NCBI GenBank assembly: GCA_024401295.1
Contig: JAKSLG010000010.1
Coordinates: 1 to 64,000 of the forward strand
Length of the DNA: 64,000 nucleotides
Source: Bacteroidales bacterium
GTDB taxonomy: Bacteria; Bacteroidota; Bacteroidia; Bacteroidales; Marinilabiliaceae
Reading direction: 5' to 3'
The notes beneath the pieces were generated by a model. That model did not search any database. It saw only the letters and a program-made list of their open reading frames with translations, and had not been told where the DNA came from. Shown in pieces: positions 26,301 to 63,006 of this stretch (the stretch's first letter is position 1; each line of letters opens with the position of its first letter). Made by a program: the position numbers and the translations under genes.

Positions 26301-29300
26301 CTCCTTCGACAACTTACACTTCTCAGTCGCAGTCGAGATTTCCCATGCAAGGATATTCTCGCCCGGATCGAGGTCGTAAACGTAGTTGTCGATGAACTTA
26401 GCCGAACCACTGCGAACACGCCATGCACCCGTACCATAAGATGGTGAATTAGGGTTGAGCTGGATTGTTCCGTCGCAAGTCTGCAAAGTTCCACAGATAT
26501 TATCTACGCCACATGGCCATGGCTCATCAGCGCTGTCATTTGTAATCGAAACAGTATCGGTGCTTGAACAGATGCCGTTCGAGATCTGATATACAAATGT
26601 ATTCTTACCCTGCTTGAGGTTCACCACATGAGCGAGCTGCTTCTTGTCTTCGCCTGCAGGGAATTCACCGCCACCAGAGATGAGCCACCAGCTTGGCTTG
26701 CTCTCAACTGTATTGAAATGTACACTTTGGCCGTTGACCATAACATCCTTATTGAGGTTATATGGCAACTCCTTAGGCTTATTACCCTGCAAATCGTATT
26801 CCGACTCACAATCGACAACATCTGCGCCTGCAAATGCATCGGTTACAGACATATTCCAGATGCTGACCTCATCAACAGAGACATTCTCGTTGTATGTGAT
26901 CTTCCACTGGAGGATATTCTCGCCCTTGTCGAGGTTGCGAACCTTTGTACGAGGGTTGTGTGGATCATCGAATGAACCGCCACCCTTGATGACACTCCAC
27001 TGACCGATACCATTGAATGGACCGTTTGCAGCAAGCGTATAAGTATCGCCGCAGAGGTTATAGACGTCGTCGCCGGCATTTGCATCGGTTACGCTACCAC
27101 GACTGATCTTGACCTCGCTCGAAATCTTACATTCGCCATTTGTCACGAGCCAACGGAATGTGTTGGTTCCTGTTGCAATATTCGTTACAGGAGCCTCAGG
27201 ATTGTGCTTGTCGCCATCTGCAATCTTACCGCCACCACTCACGAGGAACCAAGTACCAGTACCGAAGCCTGGAGCAACGGCAACTGCCTTCATCTTCGTA
27301 TCGCTCTGGGATGCTGCAAGAAGCTGATTATCACCAGCGAAGTTTGCAACATCTTCCTTCATGAGTTTTGGTATGTCGTTGCGAACGACAACAGTATCGT
27401 ATGACGTACATCCGTTCTGGCTTGCAGACCAGATGAAGTAGTTGTCGCCATAGCTCAAACCGCCGACTGCAGTCTTTGGATTTTCTGGTTCCGCAATTGT
27501 TGCAGTACCTCTACCGCTCACAAGCATCCACTCACCGCTGAGAGGCGTGCGTGCATTGAGCTGAGTATATGTCTCGCAGACTGGGAAGTCGTCGCCGGCA
27601 TCCACCTCGAATGCTCCATTGAATACGGTTACATCAGCATGGCTTTCGCATCCGCCATCCTTCGAAACGATGGTGAATCTCAAGATGTTTTCGCCACGAT
27701 CGAAGTTGCGAGCCGCAGTTGTCAACGAATTTCTGTCGTCATAGTCGGCATAACCCTTAATCGTGTTCCACCTGCCTGTTTCATACAATGGATTGATGCT
27801 TCGGCCCTGCTCAGCTGCATTATGAGCCAAAACGACATCCTCAGTTTCACAATATGTATACTTGAACTGCGTAATCACATAATTTGCATCCGTAACCTGA
27901 TTATTGGTTATGTTCACCTCGGCACGGCTTTCGCAGCTCTCGTTGCTGATAACCCAGACGAATGTCTGCTTGCCACGTCCAAGGTCATAAACCTTAGTCA
28001 CATTCGACGAAGCATCTTCGAACTTGCCTACTGAGCCTGGTGCGAGTTCCCAGTGGCCGACCTGTGTGCCAACGGCACGCGTTGCATGCAATTCATAAGT
28101 GCCGTCGCATGTCGAGTCGTCCTTGCCTGCACGGAGCGTCAGTTTCGCATTATAGATGTTGACTGTCACGCTACGTGAGCATGTTCCATGTTCGATTGTA
28201 TAGCGGAACATATTCTCGCCTTCGCTGAGGTTCTTGACAGTAATCGTGGTACCGGTTCCGGTAACATCTGCGCCACCAGTCAAGCGTTCCCACTTAGATT
28301 TCTGGATAGCCGCTCCATCAACGAGGTTTGGCGTATTACCCTCGAGAACGATCGAGAAGTTTGCATCATCAGGACAAACGACGTAGCGATACTCAACCTC
28401 CTGGTCTGTGATATCCTCAGAAACATTTGTTCCCTCCTTGATCTTGACGATAGGATCGTCAGGCTGAGTATTGTTGATAATCACCTCAGGTGAAGACGAT
28501 TCACAGTTATTATTGTTGATTGTCCAGACGAGCTTAGTGATACCCTGCTTGAGTTCACTTATCTTAGTGCGATAATATGTCGCATTCTCGATCTTGCCCC
28601 TACCCTCGCCAGGAACAATTGTCCAGACTCCTGTACATCCATCTGGCAAGCTTGTACCCGAAATCTGTGTCTCGCCATCACATACGACATCTGAAACGGC
28701 ACGTGCAGTCACGTTCAACTTGTTGTTGCGGACAACGAGCTGGTCAGACAATTCGCAACCTGTTACGGTATTTGTAACTGTCCAGACGAATACGTTTTCA
28801 CCCTGAGTCAAGTCACGGACCCAAGTCTTAGCCGATGTCGGATTGTCGATTGACGATCCACCAACGAGACGAGTCCACTTGCCGCTTTCGTTAGCAGCGA
28901 GACTGCTGAACGGCTCAATCTCGTATTCAGTGCCGCAAACATCGATGTCGTCGCCGGCAATCACATTTGGCAATGGATTAACCTCGACATTTATCGGTGT
29001 TGACCATTCGCCATAGCCACAATTGTTGACACCACGAACGCGGACAATGCCAGTCAAACGGCTCATCGTTGGAGCGATGTTGACAACGAGTGTTGAAGTC
29101 TCCTCACCGAAGTCAATAATGAATCCTGTTGGGAGATCCCACTCATAGCGTGTTGCATTCTTGATTGTCGGAACCTTAATGGTTATGTTCTTCTGATCCT
29201 GGCAGAAGAGATATGTTCCGGCTGCATTAGTTCTGCCCGGAGTTATCGTGCCATCGCTCATCTGGCTTCCAAGTTCAACGGCGCCTGGGTCGGCAGGCAA

Positions 29301-32300
29301 CTGACTTGCATAGACGAGCTTCTCACGCCATTCACTTTCGCCACAATCATTCACAGAACGAACGCGGATCACACCCTGCTCGAACTTCTTGCCGATATTG
29401 AGTGTCACGGTATTCGAACCGCCACCTGCTGCAACCACGATGAGTGGATTGCCATCAGCATCCTTAGGAAGATCCCATTCATAGCTCTTGGCATTTGCAA
29501 CAGGCTCAACCATATAGACAACAGACATCTGACCCTGGCAAACGACATCATCGCCGAGGACCTTCTCCGGCATATCCGGCATCTCCTTGACTGCGATAGT
29601 CACATTGCCATCGAGAACGACAGGTTCGCAGCTGTTATTGTCTTTGAGCGTATAGAGCGTATAGACAGTCGTTACAGTTGGCTCAACATCAAACTTGTAG
29701 TTATAGTCGAAGTTGTTGCCATTGACTGTTATCTGCTGTGGCGTTGCCAAGATGTCTGCAGCCTCAATATTGAGCGTCTGCGACAACTGACGGCCATTTT
29801 CTATCGATGCGATATATGTCAACGCATATGGAGCAGTTCCACCCGAAATATTCGCATAAATCGTAGCCTTATCACCTTCGCATATTGTCGTATTTCCGAC
29901 CATTGCGATGCTTGGCAACTCATTGACTGTGAACTTAGCCTCACCACGCATGTCTGTTGCAACAGATGGATCTGCAGAGCAGTTAGTGTCGTCAACAGAT
30001 ACAACAGTGAGCGTAATGTCGCCAGTCTTCGTCGGAGTATAGTCAAACACATAAGGAGTTGCTGTTATGCCCTCAATTGTGTACTTGTCTGTGCCATCAC
30101 TCAAGACTACATTCCAGCTTGGTGTAGAACTTTGAGATGTGAGATCAATTGTTGCCTGAACAGTCGAACCAAGGCAAACGACATCATCGCCATGGATATA
30201 TGCCGTTGGACGCTTGCGTACTTCAACGACAACCGGACGTTCATCGACTGTTCCTCGCTTGCAATCTGCATCGCCACCGGCCGCATAGACTTTTACAAGA
30301 CGGAATGTCGATGTCTCATAAACAGCATCCGGACCAAAGACATCCTTCATGTTGATTGTCAGAGGTGTTGTCTTGTTGAGTTTCACCTCCTTGTTGAATT
30401 CATCGCCCTCCTTATCATCCTTGCGGATTACAACGGCAAGATCTTCCTGCTTAGCGAAATCCCAATTAGAAACGACGAGCTTCAGCTGAGCATCATCACC
30501 CTGACATACATAGAAGTCATCGCTCTGATCCATTCTCGACAACTCGACATGTGCCTCAGGCTGACGTATCTCGATTGTGTCGCTTATGAAGCAGTCTGTT
30601 GCCATATCGAATCGGCCATCGGCATTGCTGTCATCGATAACCGTAATCTTATATACACCAGCCTTGACTGCCGAATAAGCGAATGTGCCGTTGAACTCAT
30701 CATCATTCTCGTACTTCGACTTGTAGTAACCATCTGGACCTGAAACAACAACTCGATATTTATTGTCTGGCTTATTACCGCCTGTCACATCGAGAGTGAA
30801 CAGACCTGTTGACTGGCCATAGCATTCAATGTTATGAGTCTTGACATTGCTGCTCCAGTTCTTCTCAAGTTTCAGAGGTGCAGGCTCAGTTATCGTCGCA
30901 TTGCCAGTCCATGAATTACCATTTGCATCACGTACTTCAATCGTGTATGCACCTGGTTCAAGACCTGTCACGTTGAGTGAGCTTGCGTTGTATATCTGAC
31001 CGACAACTTCGCCGGCTCCATTGCGGCAATAGATTGTGTATGGAGTGACACCACCTGTCACATCGACATCGATCTCGCCATTATTGCTGCCGTAGCATGG
31101 CAATACGTTTGTAGGCTTGATTGTCGCGCCAAGTACTTCGCCAGGCTCGCTGACGTGAATCTTAACGATTTCTGTCTCGCAACCATTCTCGTCAGTAACC
31201 TTGACTCTATAGTTACCCTTCACAAGACCAACGATATGGCTCATATTGTGGTTAGCTGTCATTTCCTGGTCGTCATCATCGTACCAGTCATATTGATAGC
31301 TTCCTGTACCGCCACTTACCTTGATTGTGATTTCACCATTTGAACCGCCATGGGCCTGAACATCAATCACAGAGACAACCTCTGCTGTGAGCTTCTGGAC
31401 AGGTTCCTTGACTTCAATTTCGTTAGATACAATCTTGCAGCCCTTAGCATCTGTCACAACCAACTGGTAAACACCAGCCTTGAGGCCTGTAATCCTGCCA
31501 TTCTCGTAGTCGGTTGCTCCACCTGTCTCGCCGCTCCACTGATATGTGTATGCAGGGATGCCACCAGTTACTGTCACTTCGATTTCACCAGTCTTTTCTC
31601 CCTTACAATCAATGTCCTTTATTTCGACATTTCTTATTTCGAGTGGATATTCAGCACCATTGACGGTGAACTCCTTAAGCACTTCGCAGCCGAGAACGAT
31701 ATCGGTAATCTTCACGGTGTAGCTGCCTCTTGAGAGGGCATTCTGATCGCGTTCTGTAGGCTTGAGCGTAGAGCATGCACCCGTCCAGAAGTATTCATAT
31801 TTGCCAGAGCCGCCACGTACGTCGAGCTTGATAGCACCGCTATTCTCGCCTGCGCACTTAACTTCCGTGATGTATTCAGTCACCTTTATCTCAGTCTGGC
31901 GATCGACAACAATGCCTCCTGGCCAGCCCATATCGGCTTCTGTTATCTGACAATCTCTATTCTTGTCCTTAACGGTCACATGATATGTGCCGGCAATCAA
32001 ACCATCCTGACTGCCAATTGTTGGATTCAAGCCACAACCATCCTGGTTGTCACCCTCGAATGTCCATTCATATTCATATTCACCAGAACCGCCACGTACA
32101 GCGAGATCGATCGAGCCATTGTTCTGGCCATCACAAGTCTCCTGGTGTGGAACGGCCGTTGCACGAAGTGGAGTGAAGAATTCATGTGTTACAGTCACAG
32201 CGCATCCGCTTCGACCTGCCGAAGCATCCTTCACGGTAACTGTGTACAATCCGTTGGCCTTGCTTGTCAAGCCTGTTGCCTCCATCTTGTCGGCAGAGAG

Positions 32301-35300
32301 CGTACGATGTTCACCCGACCATGTGATTGTGTACAATGCGCTCGCTGTCTCGAATTCGCCTGCTGTTGCTGCTGGGATAACTTGACCATTGTTGTCAAGC
32401 TTATACTTCCAACCGCCACTAACGTCAATCTTCAATGCGCCACCTTCGCCGTTGCAGTCAACATCTGTAACATCAACAAATTCAACCTTCAACTCCTCTG
32501 GTTCGAGGACGTAGAATGTTGCCTCCTTCTTAGCACCGTTAGCATCCGTTACGATGACTGTATATGTACCACGATCGAGGTCTTTGATGTTTTGAGTTGT
32601 TGCGCCATTGTTCCATGCGTATGTGTATGGAGCAACGCCACCTTCGACAGTTGCACGGATCAAACCATTCTTCTGACCGAAGCATGTGACATGGCTTACA
32701 GCGCCTGTTATCTTGATCTCGGTAGGCTCTTCAATCTTGAACTTCCTGGTTATCGTGCATGTGTTTGCACCAAGATTCCTGTCAATGACAACAACCTCAT
32801 ATTCACCGGCCTTCAAGCCTGATATGTTAGCCTTGTCAGATTTGAAGTTATCTGGGCCAGTCCAACTGTATTTATAGTAACCGGAACCGCCTGTTACGCT
32901 CACATCGATTGCGCCTTGCAAGCTTCCGTTCGATGTCACGTGTGTCACGTTGCCTACGATTGCCAATGGATATGGCACTTCGATTGTCGAAACAACCTCG
33001 CAGTCATTTGCATCACGAACAACGAATGTATATTCACCACCATCGTCAACCGTCATGGTCATGACTTCGACGTCTGATGTCGATGCTGCTGCATCCTTGG
33101 CAAGCAAGAGACTTGTAGATGTTCCATTGACAACATATCTGTAAAGGTTGCCTGTCGTGAACTTAGCGCCATTGCTAACCTTGACTGTCAGCTTATGCTG
33201 ATAGTTTGCCGGATCACAATTGACAATATCGTCAGACAACTCTACATTGAGCTGCATTGGAGCAGGCTTAACCGTGAATGTTTCAGTTATCGCACATTCG
33301 CTGACAGGATCGCTCACCTTCAAGATGTATGTTCCTGGAGCGAGATCACTCAATGCGCGTTCGTTAGACTGCATATTGTTGCCTGTCCACTTGAAGACGA
33401 GGTTCGAATCGTCATCAATACCGCTAACCACAACATTCGTTATCGCACCGTTGGCAGCGCCGAAACACTGCTCATCTGTCACAGCCGCAGTTACCGACAT
33501 CACGATTTCGTTAGTCAGAACGATCTCTTCGCTCGTGATGTTGCAATGACGGCTGTCATCTTCGTCTGTTGCAGTTACTCGATATGTGCCCTCACCAAGC
33601 GATGTAAGGTTCTTGGCCGTGATGCCGAGATTTTCCCATGTACCATCGTCTTTGAGCTTCTCCCACATATATGTCACATTGCCGATATTGCCGCTAACCG
33701 TTGTGATTATCGATCCGTTCTTTATGCCGTTGCATGTAGGATCCTGCTTGACATAGCTTACATGCAGATTCGAGAGCGAGAAGCTTTCTGTGAGCATACA
33801 AGCGTATGGTGTTGTCGAATTCTTATCGCGGACTGTGATCGTGTAGTCGCCCTCAGGCAAATCTTGGAATGTATATTCCGGATCTGCACTTGTGAGTTCC
33901 TTCGTTTCACGGTTCGCACCTGTGAGTATCACCTCATAGTTCTGAACGCCTGCTACTTTTCGACCGCCTTCAACCCTAATCGTTGCTTCTCCATTGCCTA
34001 CGCAAGGGATCTGCGAGTCGAACGAAACGATCTTCAAGACTTCAGGCTCAACCATTTCGATGTCTGGATAGCCGTTGACCATTGCGAATACCGTGCATAC
34101 ACCATAGACATCTGTAACCTCGACACGATATGTGCCGGCTGCGAGATTATCGAATGTCACATTGCTTGCAAATACGTCTTCCATCACAGTTGCACCTGGA
34201 CGGTCGAGTATGTTGTAGCATCTTACTGTATAAGGTTTCTCGCCACCGCTGATTACAACACGAATCTTGCCACTCTCGTCGCCATTGCATGTCGTGATCT
34301 CCGATATCGTTGGCGTTACGATTATTGCCTCCGGCTCGGTTATCGTGAAGTCAACCTCCTTCTCGCAGTTCGTATCCGTATTGGTTATCTTCAGGTGATA
34401 GTTACCTGCATAGAGGTTCGTGATAGAATTTCCTGTTGCACTAGCAAATGAGTATGAAGTGTTTGCAGGAGCCGTATATGTCCAGTCATAAGAGACATTG
34501 CTTGCGCCCGAAACTCTAACCTCGATTTCACCTGTGTTCTGACCATAGCACTTCACATCGTTGTGGACAAGCTCTGTCACGATGATTTCATCGTATTCAA
34601 CCAATGTGATGTACTCTTCTGCATGACAGCCGTTTTGGTCCGTCACAGAGAATCTGTAGTTGCCAAGTGCAAGATCCGTATACTGATGTGTTGCGACGCC
34701 ATTAGCATCAACATTCTCGCGGATATGCGTATCGAGATTCTTCTGGAAGTCATAACCATCTGCAAATGGAGTTCCGCCAGAAACGGTGAGCGTCACATTC
34801 GTCTTGCCTGTGCCATAGCACATCATGTCTGGCACAACGCTGAATGTCAATGCATGCTCTGGTTGCGTAATCTCAATTGTTTCCTGATATTCGGCGCCCT
34901 TGCTGTCTGTTACGACAACGGTGTAGAAACCAGCCGCAAGATTATTGAGCAGATAGATACCACCTGCATAATCGCTCGTCTTGATGTTGTTATTCACCTT
35001 GATGATGAATGGAGCGGCACCATTGAAGACATGAACCTCAATGCGGCCCGTTGTCTCGCCATAGCACATCACATCATCGGTCTTGTCGATGCCGACATGC
35101 AAAGCGCCATTATCGTTGACATTGACTGTCTCGTGATACTCACAACCCTTCGTGTCTTTAACGATGAATGTGTAATCACCAACACCCAATCCGGAGATAT
35201 AATATGGATTTGATGTCGTAATTGGTGTCGATGCCGAAGTTATATCAGCATACTTGCCTTCATACCAAGTGATTGTATATTGAGGCACACCGCCGTTGAC

Positions 35301-38300
35301 AGACTTGATTGTGATTGCGCCTGTTTCATCGCCACTCTTTATGATGTGCGTTGGAACGGCCTCTGCAGTAATCTGCTCGTTCGTTGCCACCGTATAGCTG
35401 CGTGATACGCTGCAACCCCACTTGTCAGACACTGTCACATTATATGTGCCGGCAATCAAATGGTCGATTCTTGCGCCATCTTTCGAATCAAATGCGCCAG
35501 ACTCATGCTGCCACTTATATGTGTAGACGTTATCAGTAACAGAAGGATCTGCTGCATTTTGCGCTGTTCTGATAGGTGTTCCGCCGACTGCATGAACCTT
35601 GATTGCGCCCGTTGCATCGCCGAAGCAGTCAACATGGCCAAGTTCATCGAGTTCAACATCAAGGAATGTTGTAGAACCCTCGATGACTGCCGACGCTGTG
35701 GCAACACACTGGTTATCCATGTCTGTCACAACAACCTGATAGTGACCTACGCCAAGTGCTGTCTGATCTTTCTGGCCATTCACAATGCCATCGCCATCGC
35801 CATACCAAGCGTATGCATAGTTGCCCGAACCACCTTCTGGAGTGACAATAATCTGACCATCGTGATCGCCAAGACATGTCTCAACGCCATTTGTGATATG
35901 AACATTGAGCTGGGTCTCGTTGGTTACCTCAAAGTATTCAACCTTGTCGCATGTGCCAGTACTGCTATCCGACAAAGGATGCTGCAAATCAGTCACGGTC
36001 AACTTATAGAAGCCTGCGGACAGACCTGCCTGATAAGCTCCATTGTTGTCGTTTGCGCCCGAATTGTCGAGTGGCGTTGCCATCGTCGCATCGGTATATG
36101 CATCCCAATGGTAGCTGTAGTTGCCCGAACCACCGCTGACAACGACTGTTATCATACCGGTCTTTGCACCTGGACAACGGTTTGCAACAATCGTAGATTG
36201 ATCCTTCTCAATCTTGACTGGGTTGTTGAATGTGTATGAATGCGAAACGGTGCAACCGCCATCGCGACGAACATATACCCAATATGTACCGCTGGTGAGC
36301 TCATCGAGCTCGAACTGATCGTGTGGATCACGAGTCTGAACATTGCCACTTGCATCAACTGTTGCGCCAACGCCAGGGCCTGTCCAGAACCAGTGGACAC
36401 CGCCATCGCCTGTATTCGGAGTAACTGTATGGTCATCAAACTCAATCTTCAACTTACCATTTTCACCATTGCAATCGACATACTGGTCTGAAACGAGCTT
36501 GAATTCAAGCGATGAAGCCTCCTCGATTGTGACAAGGTCTTCCTCGCTACAGCCGTTTGCATCGGTAACAACAACGCTATACGTTCCTGCAGGGAGGTTA
36601 GAATATCTGTCAACCGTTGTTATCTCTGTCTTTGTGCCAAGATGCCATGTGTATGTGTATGGAGCAACGCCACCAACGACATCAACATTGATTCGGCCAT
36701 CTGAATAGCCATAGCATGATGTGCCTACCGGAGTTGCTGTGACTTGCAATCGGTCTGGCTCTGTTATCTCCCACTCTGCATAGTAGTTATGTCTGCATCC
36801 TGAGAAGTCTGAATTCTCCCAGTCTGTCACGATGAGTGCATATCTGCCTGCAGGAAGTTCCGAAGCCGTACGTGTCTCAAGAGGGTTGCCCGAACGGCTC
36901 AACTCATGACCTGTCGTTATCGTTGTCGGGTTGACATCTGAAGCTACAGAAGTCTTCAAGTTGTCGAGCTTATAAGAGCTGCTCAAAACATACCAACGAT
37001 ACTTATAATTGCCCATGCCCTTAGCGACAACAGGCTCTATCGAACCGTTTGTACCGAGGTTGCACGATACATTGTTGACAACAGCATCGATAGTCACAGC
37101 CGAATGAAGTTCCTCTGTCGACTTAGAAACCGTACAGAGGTTTGCATCTGTCACGTAGAGTGTATAGACGCCGCCTTCGCTGATGCCTGTTGCCTCGTAA
37201 TATGTCTCCGCATTCGTCGGATCTGTCGTATTCGGCATTCTGACATTGCCCTGACCTATCCAGCTATATGAATATGGAATGAGCGTCGTCGTCTTGCCAC
37301 CCTTGACACCTGGTTGCGTGCATGCTTCGTCCTTGTAGACTCTGATTACGCGCTGATCAACGTCGCAGATGCTGTGTCCTGCGACATCTGGTTCAACCTT
37401 CAGATAGAACTCTATCAGCTCTGCAGCCTTCACCTCCTCGGTATGTGTTGCCGAACAGCCACGCTCATCGGTCACCTTCAATGTATATGTGCCCGGACGG
37501 AGGTTCTTGATTTCGTGATCATCTGATGTGTCGTTGATGATGCCTGTCGGACCCGACCACTGATATGTCAACTTGGAATTCGTATCCATTGTTGTCACAA
37601 CTGGCTTGATAGAACCGTCATATACGTCGCCGTAGCAGCTCTGATCCTTCACCGTGAAGACGCCGAATGTGATATCCTGGCTATTGTCGAGCTGGAACTT
37701 CTCAACGACATAGTTTTCATAAGCGATGTCATATTCAACCTCTCTTCCGCCCTCGTCAATCTTGACTTTCGTCTTGTCGTCTGTGAGGTTAGAACTTTCA
37801 ATGTTGATGTAGTATTTAACACCAGCATTTTCGTAATATGCAACCTTGCCGCCCATCTTGTCTGTGCCGGCATCGGTAATCTTAACCTTATAGTAACCGA
37901 CTGGCAAGTTGGTGATTGTCAACTTATTGTTATATTCAGGAACAGGAGTTGCGTCTGCCACATCATCCAAGTTGAACCATGTTGCATTTGCGGTCTGATT
38001 TGGAGCATCAAATGGCTTGTAGTACCACTGGTACGACAATGTTCCACTATTACCTTCAACGTTGACAGATATCTTACCATCGGCAGCATTGCTTGAGCAT
38101 GAAGGATTCTCCTGATCGCTTGTCACCTTCAATCCTGTTATTGTGAAGTCGAGCTGCTGTGAGCAATATCCATCTGAGTTATAGTCGCTGACTGTCAAGT
38201 GATATACACCTGGCTTGAGATCGTTCCACTTGATCCAGTTGGTCTGACCTGCAGTCGTCTCTGTCGGTTCAACTGCCGAACCATCGGAGTTGTGGTCATA

Positions 38301-41300
38301 TACCATTGACTTCACAATTGATGTCTTATATGAAGCTGTACCCTCACCTGTCAATACGATCTGATAGTAACGGTAATACTGTGTCTTACCGCCAACCACG
38401 ATTTCATTACCATGTTCGTCAACAGACTTCTTTTCAACACCACCGGTGATGTGGAAATCGACTTCGCCATTGCCGCTTACTGTGTTCATCTGGAATCGGT
38501 CGAGGTTGATTGAGAGGGCACCCGGCTGAAGCACATCGACTTCGACATATGTACCATCTGTTGGGAAGTGGCATCCTGCAGCATCGACGACACGCAGACG
38601 ATAGAGACCCTGAGCGGCTCTCAGGTTCTGGAAGAGCAGATAACCATTCTGTGTCTCGTGAGTTGCATTCTCCTTACCATCGATGAATTCAACATAGTAT
38701 GGAGCAACACCACCAGTCACCTGAACCGAAATACGACCCGTCTCCGAATCCGTACATGATGTGATGTTGATTGGCGTTGCCTCAAGCTGCAATGGAGCCT
38801 TTGGCTGGTCAATCAAGAATGGGCCAAGGTCTTTCTCGCAGCTTCCCGATGTGACGTGTACCCAATACTTGCCTGCATCAACGCTGCTCAACACGCTTGA
38901 TGTTGACAATGCATTGATTGTATTGCCCTGAGCATCCTTTTCTATCGAGCTCTCATCCTGGCCCGTCACAGGATTAACTCTGTTCTTATACCATGCATAA
39001 CTGAAGACGTCGTTCTCTGCATCGGCAAGGATAATCTCGAGCGAGCTGAGTTCGTCGCCGTCTTCGCCCTGACGGAATGGCATCCATGTGAAGTCTGCCT
39101 TTGTCAAGTTGCTTCTGTATTCTGCATTGACAGCTGCTATTGCCTGTGTCGCCTCCGGAGAGTCAATATCCTCGATTGTCACCTTCGAGCCATCGGCCTT
39201 AGTGAGTGTGAGCGACTGACCCTTCTTCTTCTTCAATGCAGAGTTGTCGACAAATGTGTAGTCTGCAAAATTCTTGCTGTTTGCTGTGCACCATGCACGC
39301 ATATCCTGCTCATTTGTGATGATGATATTTCTATTATCCTGAGCAATATTTCCTGCGCCATCAACATAGTGCGACGTCGTTGCACGGTCGCTGAAGATAT
39401 AGTAGTTGCCATAGCATGCCACAGGTGTCGAAATGATCTTGTCAACCTTGATCTCGACAGGAACATATACAGAATGTGTCTGCTTACATCCGTTGTTGTC
39501 GGTAATTGTGACGTGATATGTGCCACCCTTCGAGAGGTTCTTGGCATCGCCGGCATACATCTGCAATGTAGTTCCGTCATGCAATGGGATCAACTCTTCA
39601 GCAGCGACCTTTGTCACAGGTGCAGCACCCGACCATGTATAGCGATATGGCGCTGTTCCGCCAAGCGGATTGACGCCTGTTGGCTGGCCACCTTCTGCCG
39701 TCAGAACTTTGATTACTCTGCTATATGTGTTTCCGCCGTCACCGCAGTTAACTGCTGCATAATCGCCCTTGAGAGTAAAGTCGAGCATCTTAGCCTCCTC
39801 AACAACGAGGCCTTCCTTAGTAATGCTACAGCCTTCTGCATCTGTAATCGTTACTGAGTATTCGCCTGGTGCGAGGTTTCTAACTGCAGCCTCAGTGCTT
39901 ATCTCGCCGTCAGAACCACTCCATGAGTATGAGTATTCTGCGTATGATGGCGCACCGTTGTTCAAGATTGTCACTGTGATGCTACCATCGTTTGCGCCAT
40001 AGCAACGCTCGGCAACAATTGATTCGATTACCGAAAGTTTCTTGGCGTATGTAAGTTCAATATTATGAACCGCCTGAGCCACAACGACTTCTGCGCCATT
40101 TGCTGCCTTGGCAATGTCATTCACGACAACCGTATAGCGACCGGCCTTCAGATAAGTGCCTGTTACGCCTGTCAGATAGAGCTTGTTCGCATTGGTCATA
40201 TCGTCATGCGATGCCTTCTCTGCTGCATTCGTATCATCAAAGCCTCGTACCTTGTAGAGACCGCCATCGCTGACAAGACGTGCCGATGGACTCTCGTTCT
40301 CGTTATAGAACCAATAGTACTCAAGTTTCTCGCCTGTTGCGCCAAGCACCTTCAACGAGATCGCACCATTGTTGAGCGCATCGCATGATGGATTTATAGA
40401 TTCATCAGTAACGACGAGCTGGCTAACGACAACATTGTCAGATGTCGCGCAGTTCGCAGGCAATGCGTTGAAGTCCTGGACAGTCAACTGATATGTTGCA
40501 GCCTTCAGGCCAGACACCTTGATTGTGCTGCCGTCGATACTTACTGTCTGAGTTGTCGTAGTCTCATCCTTGCTCCATATCCATGCTGATCCGTCATAGT
40601 GTGCATATACCGTGAATGTCTTATAGAAGCCCTCGGTTGTGAGGTTCACACTATAGCGGTGATACTTGCGATCGTAGTGCGGACTCGCAACGTCTTTATC
40701 GGTCTTCTCAACACCGCCATCGAGCTTGAATGTGACATAACCGCCATTAACTGTCTGGCCAAGTTCAACAGCACCCTTGAGCTCGCTGATTTCCAACGAC
40801 TCTGGACGCAGGATTGTGAGCGGAGCATAGTAGTCTTGCGTGAGTGAGCCACCGCTTGTTCTGACGCGTGCTGCACAACCGTTTGCATCGTTCACGGCAA
40901 TCTGATAGTTGATGCCGCTTGCTGAACCCGGAAGGTCGGTGAATGTATAGTCACCCGACTCTACATTAACGGTTATAGGATCGGCATTGACACCATAGAG
41001 ATATATCGTATATGGCGAAACGCCGCCATCCACGTGAACTGCAATCTTACCGCTTGGATCATCTGAACATCCAGCCTCATGCTGTGCTGTGGCCGTAAAG
41101 CCCAATTCATTTGGCTCAGTAACTACGAAACCATCCTTCTCGCCACCAAATATCTTTGAACATACCTTGCCATTTTCGATGCGCGATATCTTGACGAAGT
41201 ATGTGCCGGCTCCAATGTTCTCGAGCGATGATGTCGATGCAGTACTGTTTGTTGAAGTTTCAATCTTATGTGCATCGTCTGCAACACCCTTATACCATTC

Positions 41301-44300
41301 GTATGTCGGATTTGTAACACCAGTCACATCAACGGTGATGAAGCCTGTCTCCTCGCCCTTGCAACTTACATGGCCGATTGTTGGAGGAATATTGATAAGA
41401 TTGATATCCTCAGGAACCTCGAACTGACGTATCGATGAACATCCGTTTACATCACTAACAATGACACTATATGTTCCGACAACATATTCATTCACAGCCA
41501 ACAGGTCGGCTACTGAATTGAGCGAACGTGTAATCGGACCAGAAAGCGCATACGAATATTCGCCACTCTGATTTGGAGTTCCGCCCGTTACGTATGTGCC
41601 TACAGCAATCTGGCTGTTGGTGTCGTGCAGATCCTTAAATTCATAAGTGCGATGACCATGTTCGCAATCAATATCCTTCAGAGCAATTTCAAACTTGATC
41701 TCCTCAGGCGATTCGAACTTGTGCTCGTATGTGCTTACATATATTGTATTGTTGCTATTGTCTGTTGTCTCCCACATTGCATAGCATCCGTCTGCATCAA
41801 CGGCCTGCAGGTAATATGTGCCGGCTGCGAGGTTCGAGATGTTCTGCTCGTTCGATGTGAAGCCGTTTGAACTATTCCAGAAGTATGTCAGAGGCAATTC
41901 GTCTTTCTGGCCACTGACAACGACGCTGATTGCAGCCGAATTGACGCCATAGCATGTCAACTCGACAGGAACGGCATTGATGAGATAGTTTCGCTCGGTC
42001 TCCAGCAAGAACTCCTTGGTGAGCGAGTTCATCTTATGAGCACTTGCGTCTGTAATCTCAACCGTATAGACGCCAGCTGGCTGACCTACCAGACGGCTTG
42101 CTGTCTGACCCGGAATCTGTGAGCCATTCCTATCAAACCACTTATATGTCACGTTGCTTTCGAAGCCTTCAACAAACACTTCTATCGAGCCATTGTTATA
42201 ACCTTCGCAGAATGGATTTGTCTGCTCGACATCAACAATCTTGAGTTTGTTGAGCGTGAAGTCGTACGTATCTGAACATGTCGAATTTGCAGAAACGACG
42301 TCTGTCATGGTCAATGTGTAGTTGCCGGCTTCGAGATTGTCGAATTCCACCTCGAAATGGTCTGTCACGTAGCTGTATTTAGCTTTCGCGTCACGATAGT
42401 TGACCTCGGTCGTAACACTTGAGTTGAGGCTGATCGTACGTGTCGAGAAGCCTGGCTGATCGCTCGAAAGTGTAGCGACAAGTCTGTAAGGCTCTGTGTC
42501 TGTACGACGCTCGCCACCACTGACGTTGAACTTCAGGTAACCGCCATCGTCGGTGAGAGATGCATCATCCATCTTGTAATCGACAGATGTCTTGTCAATC
42601 TCGACCTTATTGTATGTCTTGATGTCAACTTCGATGATGTTGCCATTTGCTCTATGGCTGTTTGTCTCGATATAACCGCCCGAAGCATAATTGCCGCTCG
42701 CATCATAATCAAAATATGATATCTCGGCGCCATTGCTGTCATACAGCTTATTGCATGAGTTCGCGTCGGTGATTGCTATCGTATGCGTGCCCGACAAGAG
42801 ATTGTCGAAACGATAGTAGCCTGTTGACGATACCTGAGTTGCACCGTCGAGCAACAATGTGTACGGCAGTGTGCCTCCACGTACCTGCAGAGTTATAACG
42901 CCTTCGGCAAGTGTCTCGTCGCAACTCTTGATGTCGCTGTGCGATACTGTATATGTCATTCGCTCTGGCTCATTGACAACGAACGTCTTCTCTACCGAAC
43001 AGTGGTCGTCTGCAACAACGACCTTATACTTGCCACCGACCAGACCTGTAATTGTCGATCCATAGCGATTATCCTGATGCGATGCCGTTGATGGCAATGC
43101 CGAGCCATCTTCCATGCTCCACGTATATGTGTATGTACCATTTGCAGGCAATTCACCACCTGATACCGAAATGGCAATAGAGCCATTCTTCTCGTCGAAA
43201 CATGAAACGTGGTTGACAACCTCATCGGAGATGATGATTGGCTCATACGAATCGATGACGATTGTCTCTGTTGCAACGCAGCCATTGTAGTCTGTTGCTG
43301 TAATCACATATTCACCAGCAACAAGATGATCTCGTGTAACAGGTTCTCCAGCCTCAATATTCTGCATTCTGAATGCGCCAGGCGAAACTGACAGCGCTGG
43401 ATAATAGTAGTGTGTTATGCCGCTAACATCCACCTGATTAACACGACCGCCAGAAAGCTCAATCGTTATCTCGCCCGATCTCTCACCTGGACATATCTTG
43501 CCGGCCGTTGCATTTGCAGTAATGACAAATGGAGCCGTGACATCGTTGTAGCCTACTGAAACTTCCTCGGTGAACGAACCGCCGTCAACATCTTCTACGC
43601 GAACGACATACGTACCTTCTGCATAGCCCTTGTATGCGAGCAATGTACTGCCAGCATAGTTTTCGGTCTGAAGGACATCGTCGATGTAGATGTTGAATGG
43701 ACTCTTACCGCTGCGGATCATGACGTTGATTACGCCTGTTGATTCACCGAAGCAGTTTATCGGATCTGTCGTCACGTCAACATCGAGCGCGCCATTATCG
43801 CGTACGATAATCGGATATATGTCTGACTCACAACCTGTTCCATCCTTGTCAACGATACGTGCATAGTATGTACCCTTGGCAAGACCGGTCAGATTATAGA
43901 CGTTATTCTTGTTTGTATTTGCCGAGAAGCTGTTTCCAGCAGCTGTTGGATCGACAATGCTGAGGCTGTAAACGCCCGTTGCTTCGTCGTGCATTATCGT
44001 ATAGTTCTGCCACTGCAATTGCCATGGCTGCGTTCCGCCCATCACCTTGTCGATGATGATGCTACCGTTTGCACCACCCATGACAGAGACATTGCGAACT
44101 GTATATTCAAGAGCGAGTTTCTCCGGCGAGTTGATGACGAACGGATAAACGACATCACAACCCTTCGAGTCTATCACGTGCAGGTTATAGCTGCCTCGCT
44201 TCAAGTCTTCTACCAATGTTTCGTCTGGATCTGTCACATCTGCAGCCGTAGCAGAACTGTTGTTTGGAAGATCTGTTCCTGGTATGTAGTACTTATAATC

Positions 44301-47300
44301 AGGAGTGCCACCCGATACCTTAAATGTGATCTTGCCGTCTGCCAATCCGAAGCATGAGACATCTTCCATGGCTGTTGCAGTAACTGTAACAGGCTCTTCA
44401 GGACCTGTTATCGTAAATTCACGCGAATCAACGCAACCATGAACGCGGTCTGTTACAACAACCTGATATGTTCCAGCAACAAGACCTGTCGCATTGCTTG
44501 TATATTGCGTGATGCTGCTTGGAAGGTCGTTGCCTATCCATGTGTACAGATAGCTGCCAGAACCGCCCTGAACAGCCATGCTGATTGTACCATTATCAGC
44601 ACCGAAGCATGTAACATCTGTCTTAGTTCCTTCAACAGAGAATGGATAGCTTTCGCCGATGACAATCTCCAACCAATCAGAAGCCGATGGATAGAAGCAG
44701 CTGCTTGTGCCGCTTGCCATGCTTCTTTCCTGATTGTCGCGAACTCTTACCTTGTATGTTCCCTTTGCAAGATTGCTTCGAGAATTCAAAGCTGAGAATG
44801 ACTCCGCAGGCAAATCTTCCCATTCATAACTGTAATCGCCAGAACCGCCGTTTACCGAGATGCGTATCGAACCGGTATCGCTTCCCTTACATGTCGAATT
44901 CGATGATGTGTACGTTACGTTCAATGGGTTGACGAATGTCACAGAACGAGTCTCCGAGCAGTTGATTGCGCCACTCGCCGAAACAACAGCCGCCGTCGCA
45001 GAATATGTTCCGCTGACAAGACCTATCGCTCCACCGTCCTGAATATGGCCGGATGTCACACCATAGCTTGTATTCGTACCATCCCAAGAGAGACGGATCT
45101 TTATCTCATAGAAGTTGCCATTCTTCTGATATACAACATTCAAATCCTTGTTCGTCGAATCCCAAGAATAGCCTTCTGTTCTGCCGGCCAAATTGCCCTG
45201 ATTCAATTTTGCCTCCATTGTTGCACGTCTCAAGTCGGCATCATCAAAGGCCATCGTCAACTTACCATGCTGTCCGTCGCAATCAACATCAACGGTCTTG
45301 TCAAGCTTGAAGCTGATAGAAACAGGTTCATGAACAACGGCATTAGCCTCAAAATATGCGCCATCAGCATCCGTCACACGGACCATATAACTGCCTGCAG
45401 CCACATTGTTGAGCTGTGATGATGTCTGTCCGCTGATCGCGACGAAGAGCGAACTTTCGTCAGCCTTATACCACTGATAACGATATGGATTGACACCATT
45501 GAATGTCTTGCCGCCTGTCGCAATAACTTCTACGGCACCATCAGACATACCCGAGCATGATACATCATGAACAGATGTCGTTGCACTCAATGCTGTATAT
45601 GAATCGATAGTGGCTGACGTATGAGCCGTACAAGAACCGTTTGTTACTTCGATATAATAAGAACCTGCAGCCAAGTCGCTGAGCGATGGCTCTGTTGTCG
45701 TGTTTACAAGTGTTCCTGTGTTATCTGATCCCAGATACCACTTATATGTATATCCGAGCGAAGGATTACCGCCAGCAACGCTCAGGCTTATCGCGCCATT
45801 CGTTGCATTTGTGATTGGCGTAATGCCGACAAGTGTCAACTCAAGTTCGTCATACATTGTCACGCTATGTGAGTGGTCTGCTGTCGAACATCCGCTCTGT
45901 GGCACAAGCGTCAGTTTGAGTTCACCACCATTTGGAATACCGCTGACATTACCGACCTTGTGATATCCATCAGAATCTGCAGTTCCCGGCAATGTCGTTG
46001 CACCGCTCGCTATGTCAGAAGTATAACGATAGCTCTGGTTGCGTGTCGTCAACGAGCCACTCCAGTTCAGATAACGCGAAGGATCTGCACGATACTCCTT
46101 GATGAAGTCTGTATATGTTGACTTAACCCATAATTCAACTGTGCGACCTGATACGTTACATTCATCTTTAACTACGAGCTTGAAGTCAGGTGTCTGATCC
46201 TCTGAAATCACAATATTGCCAGACTCGGCATAGCATCCGTTTTCATCGCCACCTTCATAGATACGGACCTTATATGTTCCAGCAGAGAATCCGCTGAATG
46301 TCTGCGCACGACCTGAATTTGTCGAAGTCATAGCGCCCTGACCGATTACTCCTGACTCGAGCTTGGTGTAATCTGTCGTACCCGAAGTGAGCTTATACCA
46401 TGCATAATGGACATCTGTGGCACTTACACCAGATGTTGTCACATTGACAGTTACCGTACCATCGTTGTTTCCGAAGCACGATACATCTGTATGCGATGAT
46501 TCCGATATCGAGAGCGACTTGTCATAGTCGAGAACAACGTCTTCAATCTTATATGTACCGGCATTTCCTGCTGTTTCGTCGGTGATAGATATCGAATATG
46601 TGCCCTTGTCGAGGTCATAGAGGCGCAAACCGCTCTGTGTCACCTGTGCCGAGGCCGTATTGCCTGTGCCACCTGTCTCATATACCGTAGTGCCGTCTTT
46701 CTTTACCTCATACTTTATCTTCGACAAGTCGAATGGCGTTGAAAGACGCAACTCAATCACACCATCCGTCGATGTGATGCACGATGGATTGGTTGGCGAC
46801 GTGCGGACATACAGACCAAATGTTATCTCCTCATAACATGTACTTTCGTCATTACCAATGTTTGTCACACGCAATGAATAAACACCTGGAGTGAGGTCTG
46901 ATATCGTGTGAGAACCTGTTGTTGTCCACGTATCGGTCTTCTGGCTCGCATTTGCGATTGAATTATTCACAAGAACATATCGGTAGCCATTCTCCTCTTT
47001 ACCACCGCCGACTTCAACAGTAACACTATTTGTTCCACCACTATTCTCGTCCAATTCGAAACCAGTAAGAGTAACGACAACAGGATCCGGCTGAGAAATT
47101 TCTTCTGGATATATTGCTTCCGAAGAACAATGAGCATCAGTTATCACAATCGTATATGTACCCTTCTCTAGTCCATCAAACACAAGTTCCTGGTATTCTG
47201 TAGCCTGTTGCTCTGCCTGAACATGTGATGACGAAGCATCGCCAAGTTTCAACTTGACTGTATAAGGTGCCTGACCGCCATGAGGGCGAACTGTTATCTT

Positions 47301-50300
47301 ACCGAGACCGGCATCTGTTGCACAGCTTACGATATCTGTGTGACCGGTTTCTGCTACAATCTTGTATGAATCGAGGAAGATGTATCTAGGTTTCTCACAC
47401 TCTGACTGACCTGTTGTTGCATCAGCTACACCTGCTGTTGTGACTGTCACCTCATACCAGCCTGCAGGACCCGATGTTACAACATTTGTTGATGTAGGGA
47501 GAATATTTACTCTTTCAACGATTGTTCCTGGGGTAATGTCAACCCAATCAGCCTCTGTCCCACTTGGCTCCGCTGTTATCGTTGCAGAATTCTTCAAATA
47601 TCTCCATGAATATGTATAACCATACTCTCTATAAACAGGAGATGCTGTAACTGTAATCCTGCCATCGTCACCATTATCACAGTTGACTTTGACGGTCTCT
47701 ACAGCAATACCTATCGAAGACGGCAGGAATATTGACTCTGAGTGGTAGCAAGCTGGATTGTTGCTGTCTGTGATTGTCAAAGTGTAGTTTCCACCTCTAG
47801 GCTGAGCAATAGTCTTAGTGTCAACACTATAATCATATGCATTTGTACCAGCAGCCAAGCTGTCGGCCGACCATACGAACGAGAATCGGCCAGACTCTGA
47901 TGCGTAGCTGAAATCCTGAACCTCAATCTGACGATTTGCGATGTCACACATGTCGGCAACTGCCAGTTTGAACGTAATCGGCTTTATGCCCTCAACTGGG
48001 TGAGATTCAGACTCTGTACATTCCTCAACTCTTGCACCTGCAACTATCTTATATGTTGTTGCTGTAATTGTATAAGAGATACTTTCTGGCGTATTTGTTG
48101 CATCAAGTTTAGTTGGCAGATTGATAACCTGAAGAGCATAGAGATTGTCACCCTCGTTATATACCGATGGTTCAACCTCTGTACTGAGGAATCCGCCAGG
48201 ACCACTCCATACGAACTTGGTCATGGCTTTGATTTCAGCAATAGTCTTGCCTTCAAAATCGCTTCCCGACAAGCGGACAATAGCAACTACGTTATTGCCG
48301 TCGCCTGCGCATGTCTCTTTTGACTCAATGAAGTCAACAAACTCGATGTTTTTCTTGTTTGTAAGAACAATTTCCTCTACGACAAGAGCACAGTCACCAC
48401 CATTTGTGACATCTGCTGTTCTTCCAGCATCCTTTACGGTAACCTTATATGTTCCTTCAATCAGGTCGTTGAGCTCAGATCCATTAGGATCATTTGCCCC
48501 TAAATCACCACTAATAGCTTCCCATTCGTAGAACAATTCACCGATATTATTACGGACATCAAGCGATATTCGGCCTGTGTTGGCATTAGAAGAGCACAAC
48601 GGATCTTCAACGATCGGTGTAACTGTCATCTGAACGAGGACTGCAGGATCGAATGTGAACGAACATGCGTTCTCCTGGTTTGCAGCATCAGTATTGTTGA
48701 CTGTGTTGAGGTCGAAGAGCTGAATGACATACGAACCTTCGTAAAGGTCTGTAAGCGTAATCTTACCACCCTTCACTTCGTTCGTTTGTCCGATATTATC
48801 AATAGGAACAATGGCTGTTTCGGAACCTGTCTTGTATGTCACACCATCCTTATAGACGATATATGCGACATTTATCGTTCCAGAAGGATCTTCCTTAGCT
48901 CCTGTGAATGTAGCAACAATCTCACCTTCACCTGGCTTACAGAGCATCGACTTGAGGCTGTAGCCCTCAATAGTGCTCATGTTCTTGATCTTGATTGGCT
49001 CGATTTCTGATGTTGCTGGATCATCGCCTACTGCTACTGTAACGCCATTGGCATCAGTAACTGTGATAAGGTAATCGCCAGCAGCAAGGCCCGATATTGT
49101 GAAACGGGCTGTATTGTCAAAACCTTCATCAGCAGGAATTTCATCTTGACTATCAGAATATGGCACCACAACACCACCGTTCTTCACGATGTATGGAGCC
49201 TTACCTGTTATGACAAGGTTGATAGCGCCTGTTGGCTCTGTATTCTGCGAGTTGGCACACTTGACATCTTCTACTGTATATTCAACCTGCAAGCGGTTGA
49301 GCTGAACTGTATAATCTTTTGACAACCAACACTTCTCGCGGTCGTTGGCAACAAGATAATATGTTCCGGCAGCAAGATCGAGCAACTTAGGCTGCGAAGT
49401 GTTTGAAGTGGTCTGAACATGTTCATTTGCAAATGCCGCGTCATCATACCACTTCCACTCGAAGTCTGGGCCATTGCCACCATCAAGACCACGGATAGAA
49501 ATCTCACCATTATGCGTTCCGTTATCTGGCTTGATATATTCGAGGTCGAGAACAATCTCTGTAGGCTGGTCGATATGCTGATCGGCCGTTGTCGTAGAAC
49601 ATTGCGTATTGCCATCTATTGCCGTTACGACTACATAGTAATCACCACGTCCGAATGTAGTACCCGTAGGCAATTCGAACGTATGTGTTGAAGAACCATC
49701 TGCACCAATTGTCTCATCCGCCTGAAGAACCTGAGTTGAAGAGGTCGTTGTCACGCCACTTGCATCGGTCACGTAGTTCTTCTTCCACAACGTATAACGA
49801 TGTGTCTTTGTTGCAGCTGCACCCCAAGATGCTTCTGCTGTGATTGTTGCAGTAGAATGGTTGTTTGTTCTATCACCATTAGCGTCACTCTCAAAGCTTT
49901 CAGGAGAACAGAGATAATCGACATGACCGGTTATCTGAGCCGAGATAAGTGGCTGAACATCTACCTTCTTCTCGTAAGTACAAGACATGATTGTCTCGCT
50001 TGCTCCATTGAAGTTCTGGCTTTCCCAACGAGCTGTAACTGTAGCTTTTATCTCAGCAGCTGTCGTAATGCGCGTATTGTCGATTACGAATGTTGCTGGC
50101 GTCGACTGAGGTATTTCTGCATCTGACAGGAGGATGGTCTCATTCGCTCCTTCAACAAGACTGAATGTCACGAAGAGACGAGTATCGTGATTATTCTTAT
50201 ATGTAACAGGAATACCGTTCCATCCACCGTTGGCATTGATTGTCACCGTGCTCTCGCATGAGCTGTACTCAAGAGCATCGATATTCACAAGACCCGGTTC

Positions 50301-53300
50301 ATAGATATAGAATGTCTTGGTTGTTGAGCATCCCTTGTCATCCTTTGCAGTCAACTCATACTGACCTTTCTGCAAGCCTGTGAAACGGTAGTTGTGAGTC
50401 GTAGCAGAAGTTCCGCTTCCAATAGTTATAGCTGCACCATCGGCATCAGCTGCTAATGCATCGAAATACACATCTTCGTTACAAGTCATCCAGCTACCAT
50501 CTGTAGCTGCAGGGTTCTCCTTCTGAATGCGACGCAAAGAGTAGGTATAGAGAGCAAGATTTGTCTGGTCGTTGACATTACCACCACGCATTGTGCGTAT
50601 CTGCATGATACCATCGTTAGCGCTCTGCTTCTGACCTGAACCATCAAGAGTGACGCAAGTCACATCGCGGAGGTAGAGGTCGCCAATCTGAACAGGCTCG
50701 TCAGGCTCGGTGATGGTGAAATCCATCGAATAGAGACATGATGGATAGTCTTCGTACTTAAACCATATTGTATAGTTGCCAGCCATGAGCTTGTCAACCT
50801 CAATCTTGTTTGTCACAAGTGCCTGACCATCAACAGCTGTGCTCGCTGTGTTAGATTCTGTATATGTATTAGTTGTCTCAAGACCAATGCTTGTCACTGT
50901 GTATGTAGCCGCCGTACCATACTGAGACATCTTCTTCCAACCAGATGCATCCGAAGCTACGCTAACGCCCTGTGCTTCAATTATATAATTAACCTTTGGA
51001 GCAAAAGCGTGATAGAATGGCGTGTTCTTGATTGCCGCGGCAATTGTTCCACCTGTGCCATTATTTGCTTGCAGATGTGTAAATGTGATCTCTGCCTTAC
51101 CATCACGACCATCCTTACAGCTTACTGGTGTAAATGTGTAGGAAGCAGTAATCTCTGGCAAAGCTTTGATTTCAAACTCAACTGTATTAAAACATGAAGT
51201 GTTTGCACCTGCATAAATCGATGCAGAATATACACCTGGCTCGAGGCCACTGAGCGTCGTGCTTGGATTGACAATCACTTCACCCGAACCCTTACGCCAT
51301 ACAACAGAGCGCTCGGCAGGAGCAGAGAGACCCTCAAACGATATGGCTGCCGTTCCAAGACCGACACAATTGCCGGCATCTGTACAGCAGTTGTACTTTT
51401 CTATTACATCAATCTTGAAATCAACAGGATCTATCTCGCTGATATTCTGAACACTTGACTTAAAGACACAACCTGTAACGTTGTCCGTAATCTTAAGAAT
51501 ATAAGCGCCCTTAGCTCCTGTGAAGATATGGGTCGTATTTGGCAATACCTGACCATCAATATTACCGATACCATTTGCGGCAGATGCATACGCGTCAGCC
51601 TTATACCATTCGTAAGAGAAGTCGCTTGAACCAGCCGAAGGTGTTATCTCAACGCCCTGACGAACCAATTTCGTCAATGTGATCACACCGTTGTTCTGAT
51701 CCTTACATGCATCATCAATCACGAACTCAGTATCTACGTTCGGGTGCGTTGAAGGATAGATATATGCAATAACCTTGTCGCAACCTCCATTATCCGAACC
51801 CGTGATAGTTGCAGAAGATGATGGATTTGTCAATTCGCCTCGAGCGTAGAGTTCACCGTTACCCGCTGCGGCTGTCTTACCTTTCGGATATACATACAGG
51901 AACTCATTATCACTTGAAATTTCATACAAGATTGATAATGAAGCTGTTATATTCCAGCCACTTGGCTTATATACAACCTTATTTGTCGCAGCATCCTTTA
52001 CCTTGAGACGTATCTGGTCATCAACATAATATCCATTTGCATTTGGCGTATTAAGGATCTCCATCTCGTAGTTTGACGTACCAGTTTCAACATCAGACAA
52101 GGTAAACTTATAATAACCATAATCCTTCTGTTCAAGATTCTGGAGATCGACAGTCAGAATTGGTGTCAGCACGTCAAGAGCTGGATTATTTGCCCAATTG
52201 TCCTTAAGTTTCTTATCTGTGTCAACGAAGAATGAGCAATATTCAATGTCCTTACTCCACTGCATCTCATGCTTTGGAGCAACATAGTACTGCTTGCGAA
52301 TTGTCTGGAAACATCCGCCATAAGTGTCGACATCCGACTGGAATATATAGTTGATGTTATAAACACCCGGCGACAAGTTCTGTGGGTTGAAGTAGAACTT
52401 ACCCATATTGTCATTGATGCTGCCATCGGTAGGAACGCTGGTCAAAGTTGTACCAGCCTCAACGCCTGGCTCCTGACGTTCAACAACCGACAATGACGCT
52501 GTCGTAAGCATCTGAGGACCTGTAAGATTGTTTGCCTGATTAATCTGGTTGAACTCAGATACAACATCTGCGTATGAGTAGCAATCATCTCCTTCAACTT
52601 CAGTCACATCCAAAGGGTTTGCCAATGTCTGACCCATAGTTGTCAGGTAAGCATCAACAGCAGACTTCGAGTAGAAACGACGAGTAATAGAGTTGAAATG
52701 ATTGTCGTATATAAACTCAAGGCCGAAATTCTTACCCGATGTTGCACCCTGAAGTGTAATCTCAAACCATCCCTTACCTGGAACCGTACCTGTGCCGAGA
52801 CTTGGGTGGTGTGTTTCCAACAAATAACTACCTTCATCAGAACGACAGAACGTACGAGGCTCTGCAGAGTCAGAAGTATTCGACTTAACAGCAAAAGATA
52901 CTGGTGCAAAGTTGTTTATGTATGTGATGGTGTTTACTCGATAGGTACAAGCGCCACCATCATAAGTGTAATAAACAGTTGCAGCAGGGCGGTCAGTCCT
53001 ACGATATTCCTTGATATACTTGTCAAGATCGAGGTAAGCGACCTGACCAATATTATCGTAGTAGAATGTAACCGCGTTACCGAGAGCATCAGATCCCGAC
53101 TGAGTTGTAAGTCCCTGAGGCAGAGTCAATCCGAGACGAGTAAATGCTGCATCAATCTGTGATTTTGTCTGCAAGAGAATTCTGTCATCGACGCCGCTGA
53201 TAGTGAAGTAACCCGGTACTGTCGAACCGGCAGCATGGAAAAGCTGCAAAGAGTTCTCCGAAGCCATAGTCAAGTTATCAACAACCGACTTGGCCGTTGT

Positions 53301-62964: not shown

Positions 62965-63006
62965 CGAGCAAAAATCAGACAGTCAGCGCGTGTATAGCGG
63001 GCTATA

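Follow-up and report, generated by a model that had tools for sequence, protein, structure and literature searches.

The stretch of DNA analyzed here (the window) spans 64,000 nucleotides, positions 1 to 64,000 of contig JAKSLG010000010.1 in assembly GCA_024401295.1, from a Bacteroidales bacterium of the family Marinilabiliaceae. On its minus strand lies a giant open reading frame (ORF; 23046..58982) that codes for an SprB-like surface protein of 11,978 amino acids (aa), which, taken in two pieces, matches PF13573 with 264.2 and 379.1 bits (the cut-off being 28 bits). All 28 PF13573 matches of the genome, a draft of 40 contigs that is 75% complete, sit in this ORF. Complete ORFs of 11,430-16,328 aa are present in seven relatives of the same genus; five of 14 same-genus relatives (G004, G006, G010, G012 and G014) have 0 or 1 SprB-repeat match, which may reflect incomplete drafts or real losses. 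We report that most units of the repeat array in this protein fall into six blocks of 6, 15 or 14 units, that this block order is conserved in related genomes, and that the terminal block is common to the family.

The array (residues 2416-9479) was split by hand into 69 units, the borders of which were then adjusted. Units 1-7 (49299..51737), as delimited by this split, are too diverged to be placed in the block order and were excluded from position counts. The other 62 units (8-69) form six blocks with sizes of 6-15-6-6-15-14. From the N-terminal side, all on the minus strand, these are block a6 (positions 1-6, units 8-13; 47364..49298), block A (positions 1-15, units 14-28; 42963..47363), block b6 (positions 1-6, units 29-34; 41112..42962), block c6 (positions 1-6, units 35-40; 38796..41111), block B (positions 1-15, units 41-55; 34329..38795), and the terminal block C (positions 1-14, units 56-69; 30546..34328). 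The 6-unit blocks were assigned by unit analysis and a tree of positions 1-6, blocks A and B by unit analysis, trees, and block alignment, and block C by trees and a 14-unit run test. The 15-unit block acts like a pair of modules, namely alpha (positions 1-6) and beta (positions 7-15), so that a6, b6, and c6 are alpha modules, and A and B are alpha plus beta. The initial annotation, made from the sequence of the window, had proposed a hidden 15-unit order in three copies at about 47,340-42,935, 38,770-34,310, and 34,310-30,540, with the third copy one unit short. The borders and the missing unit agree with those measured here (47363-42963, 38795-34329, and 34328-30546); the count of three holds for A, B, and C, but there are six copies in all, a6, b6, and c6 having been overlooked. 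The last unit of c6, unit 40 (38796-39467), is atypical with 224 aa and seemingly contains an insertion; at its place an unlabelled gap of 100-139 aa is found in G005, G002, and G003, and no such gap in G008, G009, and G017.

Evidence for the order came from the units themselves. All unit pairs were scored by lag, with a correction for the general similarity of each unit, and lags 27, 6, 15, and 12 scored 7.7, 6.2, 5.7, and 4.4, respectively, whereas the largest lag in 5,000 shuffles of the order had its 99% limit at 3.85 and rose to 5.31 at most. The strongest period of the array is accordingly 27 units. The best partner of a unit by sequence had the same position in 38 of 62 cases (3.8 expected) and was a neighbor in three; with profiles from seven genomes these numbers were 49 and two, respectively. 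Positions 6 and 14 were weakly marked. Mean identity was 29% for units of the same position versus 24% for neighbors. Moreover, whole-block Smith-Waterman scores were 1056 for A-B, 1047 for B-C, and 952 for A-C, as opposed to maxima of 690, 762, and 732 in 100 unit-order shuffles, and 98-99% of the residues aligned among these three blocks fell at the same position. Lags, best partners, and block alignments, each compared with chance, thus bear out the 15-unit order. The initial annotation had also predicted a diagonal at about 1,480 residues in a self dot plot; no sharp diagonal was seen there with ungapped 40-aa windows, for which the best offset bins were 50, 1300, 250, and 2900. The 15-unit period is visible at the unit level and in gapped alignments, and is not visible without gaps because the lengths of units vary. 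Presence of Cys residues was also tried as a guide to disulfide pairing, a reading that was dropped since the association was not positive, either within units (phi -0.17) or between neighbors (-0.13).

Position-specific residue patterns noted earlier are mostly present in the window. In the numbering of that annotation, positions 1-9 correspond to positions 7-15 here, and positions 10-15 to positions 1-6 here. Thus numbered, position 2 has the motif as DCDGQHGKL, DCNGENGKL, and DCNGEGGAL; positions 3 and 4 have GGSG-Y-Y-W in six of six units; position 6 lacks the first Cys in all 21 units over seven genomes; position 7, said to have few Trp, has none in its core; position 11 shows GGGKEE (A), GGVEKK (B), or GGRKVA (C); and position 14 is a degenerate unit. 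The NPSC expected at position 12 occurs in A and B, and is replaced by DPTC in C.

The same order is found in close relatives. Position models trained on the window alone, with unit 40 omitted, were run on fifteen proteins, that of the window included. The 62-label order was recovered to the extent of 62 labels in G005, 55 in G008, 58 in G009, 57 in G003, 58 in G017, and 58 in G002, while shuffles (30 each) for these six relatives reached at most 31 labels. G013 and G011 gave 51 and 57 labels (shuffles, at most 33). Six proteins from other genera gave 15-20 labels, at or slightly above the shuffle maxima, as expected if mainly the terminal block is common to them. When slots were taken from a whole-protein alignment, the slot orthologue was the best of the 69 window units for 62 of 62 slots in G005, 58 in G008, 60 in G009, 59 in G003, 61 in G017, and 60 in G002, and for 42 of 62 in G013 and 52 of 62 in G011. 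In trees of concatenated positions over seven genomes, each of the six alpha copies forms a clade (support 92-100), as do the beta copies of A, B, and C (96-100). Since each copy is a clade across the seven genomes, the copies must have parted before these species did, and without homogenisation. The initial annotation had explained the array by duplication of a many-domain block followed by long divergence, which the identities of 29% and 24%, the copy clades, and the order kept across species support.

Differences in length among relatives come as whole modules. In G011 (16,328 aa) and G013 (13,491 aa), block A is followed by two more runs labelled positions 7-15, some units of which are weak. 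A tree built from positions 7-14 groups the first extra modules of the two genomes with A (100) and the second ones with C (97), and each extra beta module pairs between G011 and G013 at a support of 100. Given this placement, the extra beta modules are apparently old, and may have been lost from the other seven genomes. A self-lag analysis of G013 returned lags 9, 15, 6, 45, and 12, all with p 0.002 or less. Change by 6 and 9 units therefore fits better than change by a 15-unit block alone; the growth block of 15 proposed initially does exist, but 6- and 9-unit blocks also stand alone. A duplication of 27 units (alpha, alpha-beta, alpha, twice), suggested by the lag of 27, was rejected, since in the alpha tree c6 groups with C (100), and A groups with B (68). 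It is also disfavored by the beta modules, for with the extra ones included, B falls outside the group of A, b2, b3, and C (96).

Beyond these genomes, it is the terminal block that persists. In a 14-unit run test with models trained on seven genomes and 2,000 shuffles (floor, p 0.0005), the terminal order reached the floor in ten of ten proteins from nine other genera of the family, in which this block is also the last of the array, followed by one unit at most. These proteins were picked for large ORFs; together with G017 they represent 11 of 22 other-genus family genomes. Among 51 further SprB-repeat loci, all of 14 units or more, not one reached the floor (19 of 79 named loci, and six of 13 proteins of a further set, had fewer than 14 units and were left out). 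Six of the 51 were at p 0.05 or below, among them L076, from a Marinilabiliales metagenome-assembled genome (p 0.008), and some are close kin (L063, L071, and L074; L092 and L095). Of the order-level relatives, G054 gave p 0.0495, two others failed, and six more had too few units. The Flavobacterium loci L061, L084, and L087 gave p 0.78, 0.31, and 0.05, respectively; L083 and L107 had too few units, and F. johnsoniae SprB itself was not among the tested loci.

Other SprB-repeat loci often have periods of their own, mostly of 1-8 units and with more similar units; the median unit-pair score is 43 here versus at least 124 in 34 of 38 other loci with at least 20 units. Examples are a 4-unit period in L109 of Aureispira sp. 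CCB-QB1 (score 13.1), a 3-unit period in L059 of Roseivirga pacifica (10.7), and 8-unit periods in L092 and L095 (7.1 and 7.3). Within the family, G018 has a lag of 10 (score 13.2, p 0.001), G034 a lag of 10 (p 0.027), and G016 only a lag of 1 (p 0.022); G019, G020, and G021 showed no self-lag at 0.05. As read from labels, a 10-unit block precedes the terminal block in G018, G020, G021, and G034, and trees of this block separate its positions 11-14 from C (99) and put its positions 1-3 inside the family's C (95). In G018 (L045 and L046) two strongly similar 10-unit blocks stand ahead of the terminal block, perhaps a young block duplication. Higher-order periods are therefore not unique to this protein, but an old, diverged, and conserved block order is.

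On either side of the array lie regions of other kinds. The N-terminal region (residues 1-2415; 51738..58982, minus strand) begins with a hydrophobic N-terminus and contains a few stretches that resemble units (residues 269-380, 635-736, and 729-832), which an iterated model detected at E 2e-13 to 5e-9. Between the array and the sorting domain lies a PKD/Ig-like region (23331..30545, minus strand; PF18911, PF19408, and PF00801), and the C-terminus is a type B sorting domain (23067..23330, minus strand) of the type IX secretion system (T9SS), with 44.4 bits to PF13585 (cut-off 27) and 35.4 bits to TIGR04131 (cut-off 35). With anchoring at the C-terminus, the N-terminal region is likely to be the distal end. 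Positions 9-12 of block C are predicted to be four beta-sandwich domains (mean predicted local distance difference test score 88.7), with a predicted template modelling score of 0.56 that leaves the mutual placement of the four domains uncertain. A search of the PDB with the raw C block returned nothing at 0.001. Upstream, a DprA gene (58982-60094, minus strand) ends at the base where the first ATG of the giant ORF begins; further in-frame Met codons at residues 10 and 12 make the true start of the ORF uncertain. A 22-base tandem repeat (2.2 copies) lies at 62919-62967.

Directly after the giant gene comes a gene for a PorP/SprF-family carrier (21885..23024, minus strand; PF11751, 157.6 bits; TIGR03519, 174.3 bits). 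In 14 relatives the next ORF of at least 150 aa carries a like tail, an assignment made by position and tail, the profile scan being on the window's protein alone. This tail has one conserved Cys, mostly as PCSEP or PCTEP, in 15 genomes (in G013 a further Cys precedes the tail). In F. johnsoniae, SprF anchors SprB, and a Cys-Xaa-Cys pair is described as required for gliding (PMC12635249). The single-Cys tail found here may represent a natural single-cysteine track linkage, or another linkage. GldJ-family matches occur in 14 of 14 genomes searched, five of them above the curated cut-off of 458.2. Three observations weaken the case for movement, namely that no Cys-Xaa-Cys is present in the last 74 residues of the carrier in 15 of 15 genomes, that the near full-length GldJ match of the window genome has 439.9 bits and thus lies below the cut-off, and that weaker GldJ-family matches are also found in two of 14 control genomes. 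With a GldJ score under the cut-off and a carrier tail of this kind, movement is not secure.

We consider it quite probable that the protein is an SprB-like, type B T9SS surface fibre anchored by an SprF-like partner, whose array changed in length by modules and was then held by purifying selection. The protein would be secreted via the type IX system and anchored by the SprF-like product of the next gene, and would project from the cell surface as a long string of beta-sandwich domains. The array would have grown through in-frame duplication and loss of alpha modules of 6 units and beta modules of 9 units, on the distal side of the conserved terminal 14-unit block; with the sorting domain at the C-terminus, this block would be closer to the membrane, and new modules would be added on the outer side. 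The arrangement alpha / alpha-beta / alpha / alpha / alpha-beta / alpha-beta' predates the separation of the seven genomes, and every one of the 62 placed units has since been kept as a slot of its own, with purifying selection and no homogenisation. We infer that the order is held by the fit between neighboring domains together with the inability of diverged units to recombine any longer, and the protein may be a moving gliding adhesin with the array as its stalk.

Several results count against this explanation. In plain alignments, the best paths of A against b6 and of A against c6 run six units off register and stay within shuffles (p 0.356 and 0.198), b6-B reaches only p 0.069, and c6-C and b6-C keep the register over only 24% (p 0.030) and over 70% (p 0.020), respectively; the off-register paths hint at an older kinship of positions 1-6 with positions 7-12. 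Support for the b6 clade is only 42 when the tree uses positions 1-3 alone. In the alpha tree, some of the joins between copies have weak support (54 and 68), although c6+C has 100, which leaves the order of duplications unsettled. The best self-lag of G011 is 28 (p 0.031), with none above the 99% limit and with gaps in the unit calls. Neighbors (24% identity) are no less alike than other pairs of unlike position (24%), so that no pressure against like neighbors, such as was proposed for Ig-like tandems (PMC4660218), is seen. Finally, the ratio of nonsynonymous to synonymous substitution rates (dN/dS) of the array, about 0.09 for G000 versus G005, comes with a dS near 2, which is saturated.

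The blocks could instead be a neutral relic, in which old duplications slowly decayed without separate roles and low identity bars recombination, so that the order simply stays; this is a serious alternative, although we lean toward doubting it. Same-position units share only the 29% identity given above, and of 38 other SprB-repeat loci with at least 20 units, 15 have neighbors that are significantly alike (lag 1, p 0.01 or less), so that a fixed order of unlike units is no general need. Strict position-specific residues are few, 11 in all, but they exceed what 300 shuffled groupings gave (mean 1.7, maximum 7). The identity of positions is real, and these residues hint faintly at separate roles of single positions. 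The terminal order kept in all ten other-genus proteins likewise speaks against mere decay, as does the low dN/dS, which suggests that the array is under purifying selection, though it is as much a sign of folding as of roles. The earlier suggestion that position-specific roles were retained thus survives only weakly, through residues beyond shuffles, as array-wide purifying selection proves no separate roles.

A more functional proposal is that of a ruler or docking scaffold, in which modules set the length of the fibre and repeat binding sites or a pitch, by analogy with the super-repeats of titin on the thick filament; we regard it as unlikely. It would account for species differing in length by whole modules, and for the ten highest unit lags all being multiples of three, with unlike positions that are equal modulo 3 more alike than others (0.327, permutation p 0.0042). 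However, such lags arise partly because the blocks are 6 and 15 long, the modulo-3 signal is one test, no partner is known, and G018 of the same family has the 10-unit period mentioned above; a three-unit order within the array is a lead only. Equally speculative is a bacterial counterpart of titin, in which whole alpha and beta modules, grown from an older three-domain repeat, would set the length, and position-specific contacts would give the fibre an inherent pitch or a repeating series of binding sites beyond the conserved membrane-near block. As for the data themselves, the borders were set by hand and positions 6 and 14 are weakly marked, and the flavors of positions might in principle stem from segmentation or base composition rather than descent. 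This is very improbable, since plain A/B/C alignment recovers the same positions, window-trained models transfer to other genomes, and the result of the family in the run test is matched by none of the 51 other loci. Misassembly of a metagenome contig, conceivable in a draft of this completeness and contig number, is hardly credible as the origin of the blocks, given that six other assemblies, whose proteins are 44-74% identical to that of the window, show the same 62-slot order.

The SprB-like surface fibre proposed here shares with SprB of F. johnsoniae and with PF13573 proteins its SprB-type units, type B sorting domain, SprF-family neighbor, and giant size. SprB is described as a huge filamentous adhesin of 6,497 aa (PMC9870892); the protein of the window is about twice as long. 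It differs further in the single-Cys tail of its carrier, where F. johnsoniae SprF has Cys-Xaa-Cys, and, from the SprB-repeat loci compared, in its strongly diverged units and a fixed block order that is absent at this level in 51 loci. GhpA, the grappling-hook protein of Aureispira sp. CCB-QB1 (PDB 9flp and further entries), is likewise a giant surface protein with weakly similar units; a profile comparison gave E 2.8e-45 and 158.1 bits, summed over many weak stretches, of which the best single one had 31.9 bits. The closest analogue is the set of super-repeats of titin. Domains at comparable super-repeat places in the titin A-band (D-zone and C-zone) are reported to resemble one another most, and growth by repeated duplication is described, with short and long forms that differ by a whole sub-block (PMC10665226). 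Here too, same-position domains are more alike than neighbors, and there are several colinear blocks. Nonetheless, titin is a eukaryotic muscle protein of Ig and FnIII domains, whereas the present array has 6, 9, or 15 SprB units and no known filament partner, and the analogy entails no claim of homology. As far as could be checked, a block-ordered build of this sort is known from titin and apparently undescribed for this kind of bacterial protein. The initial annotation knew of no account of such a superrepeat in SprB-like proteins, and our literature search on such proteins, which covered neither the 2008 SprB paper nor most subscription papers, found none.

Arrays of domains in bacterial adhesins are commonly regarded as interchangeable, readily varied spacers. 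Here, 62 domains stay separate slots, arranged in blocks, across species of a genus. The terminal 14-unit block, present in every protein of the family that was read for it, can serve as a genomic marker. Thus, this protein offers a bacterial system for the question posed by titin, namely whether there is information in the order of similar domains, and how such chains grow block by block.

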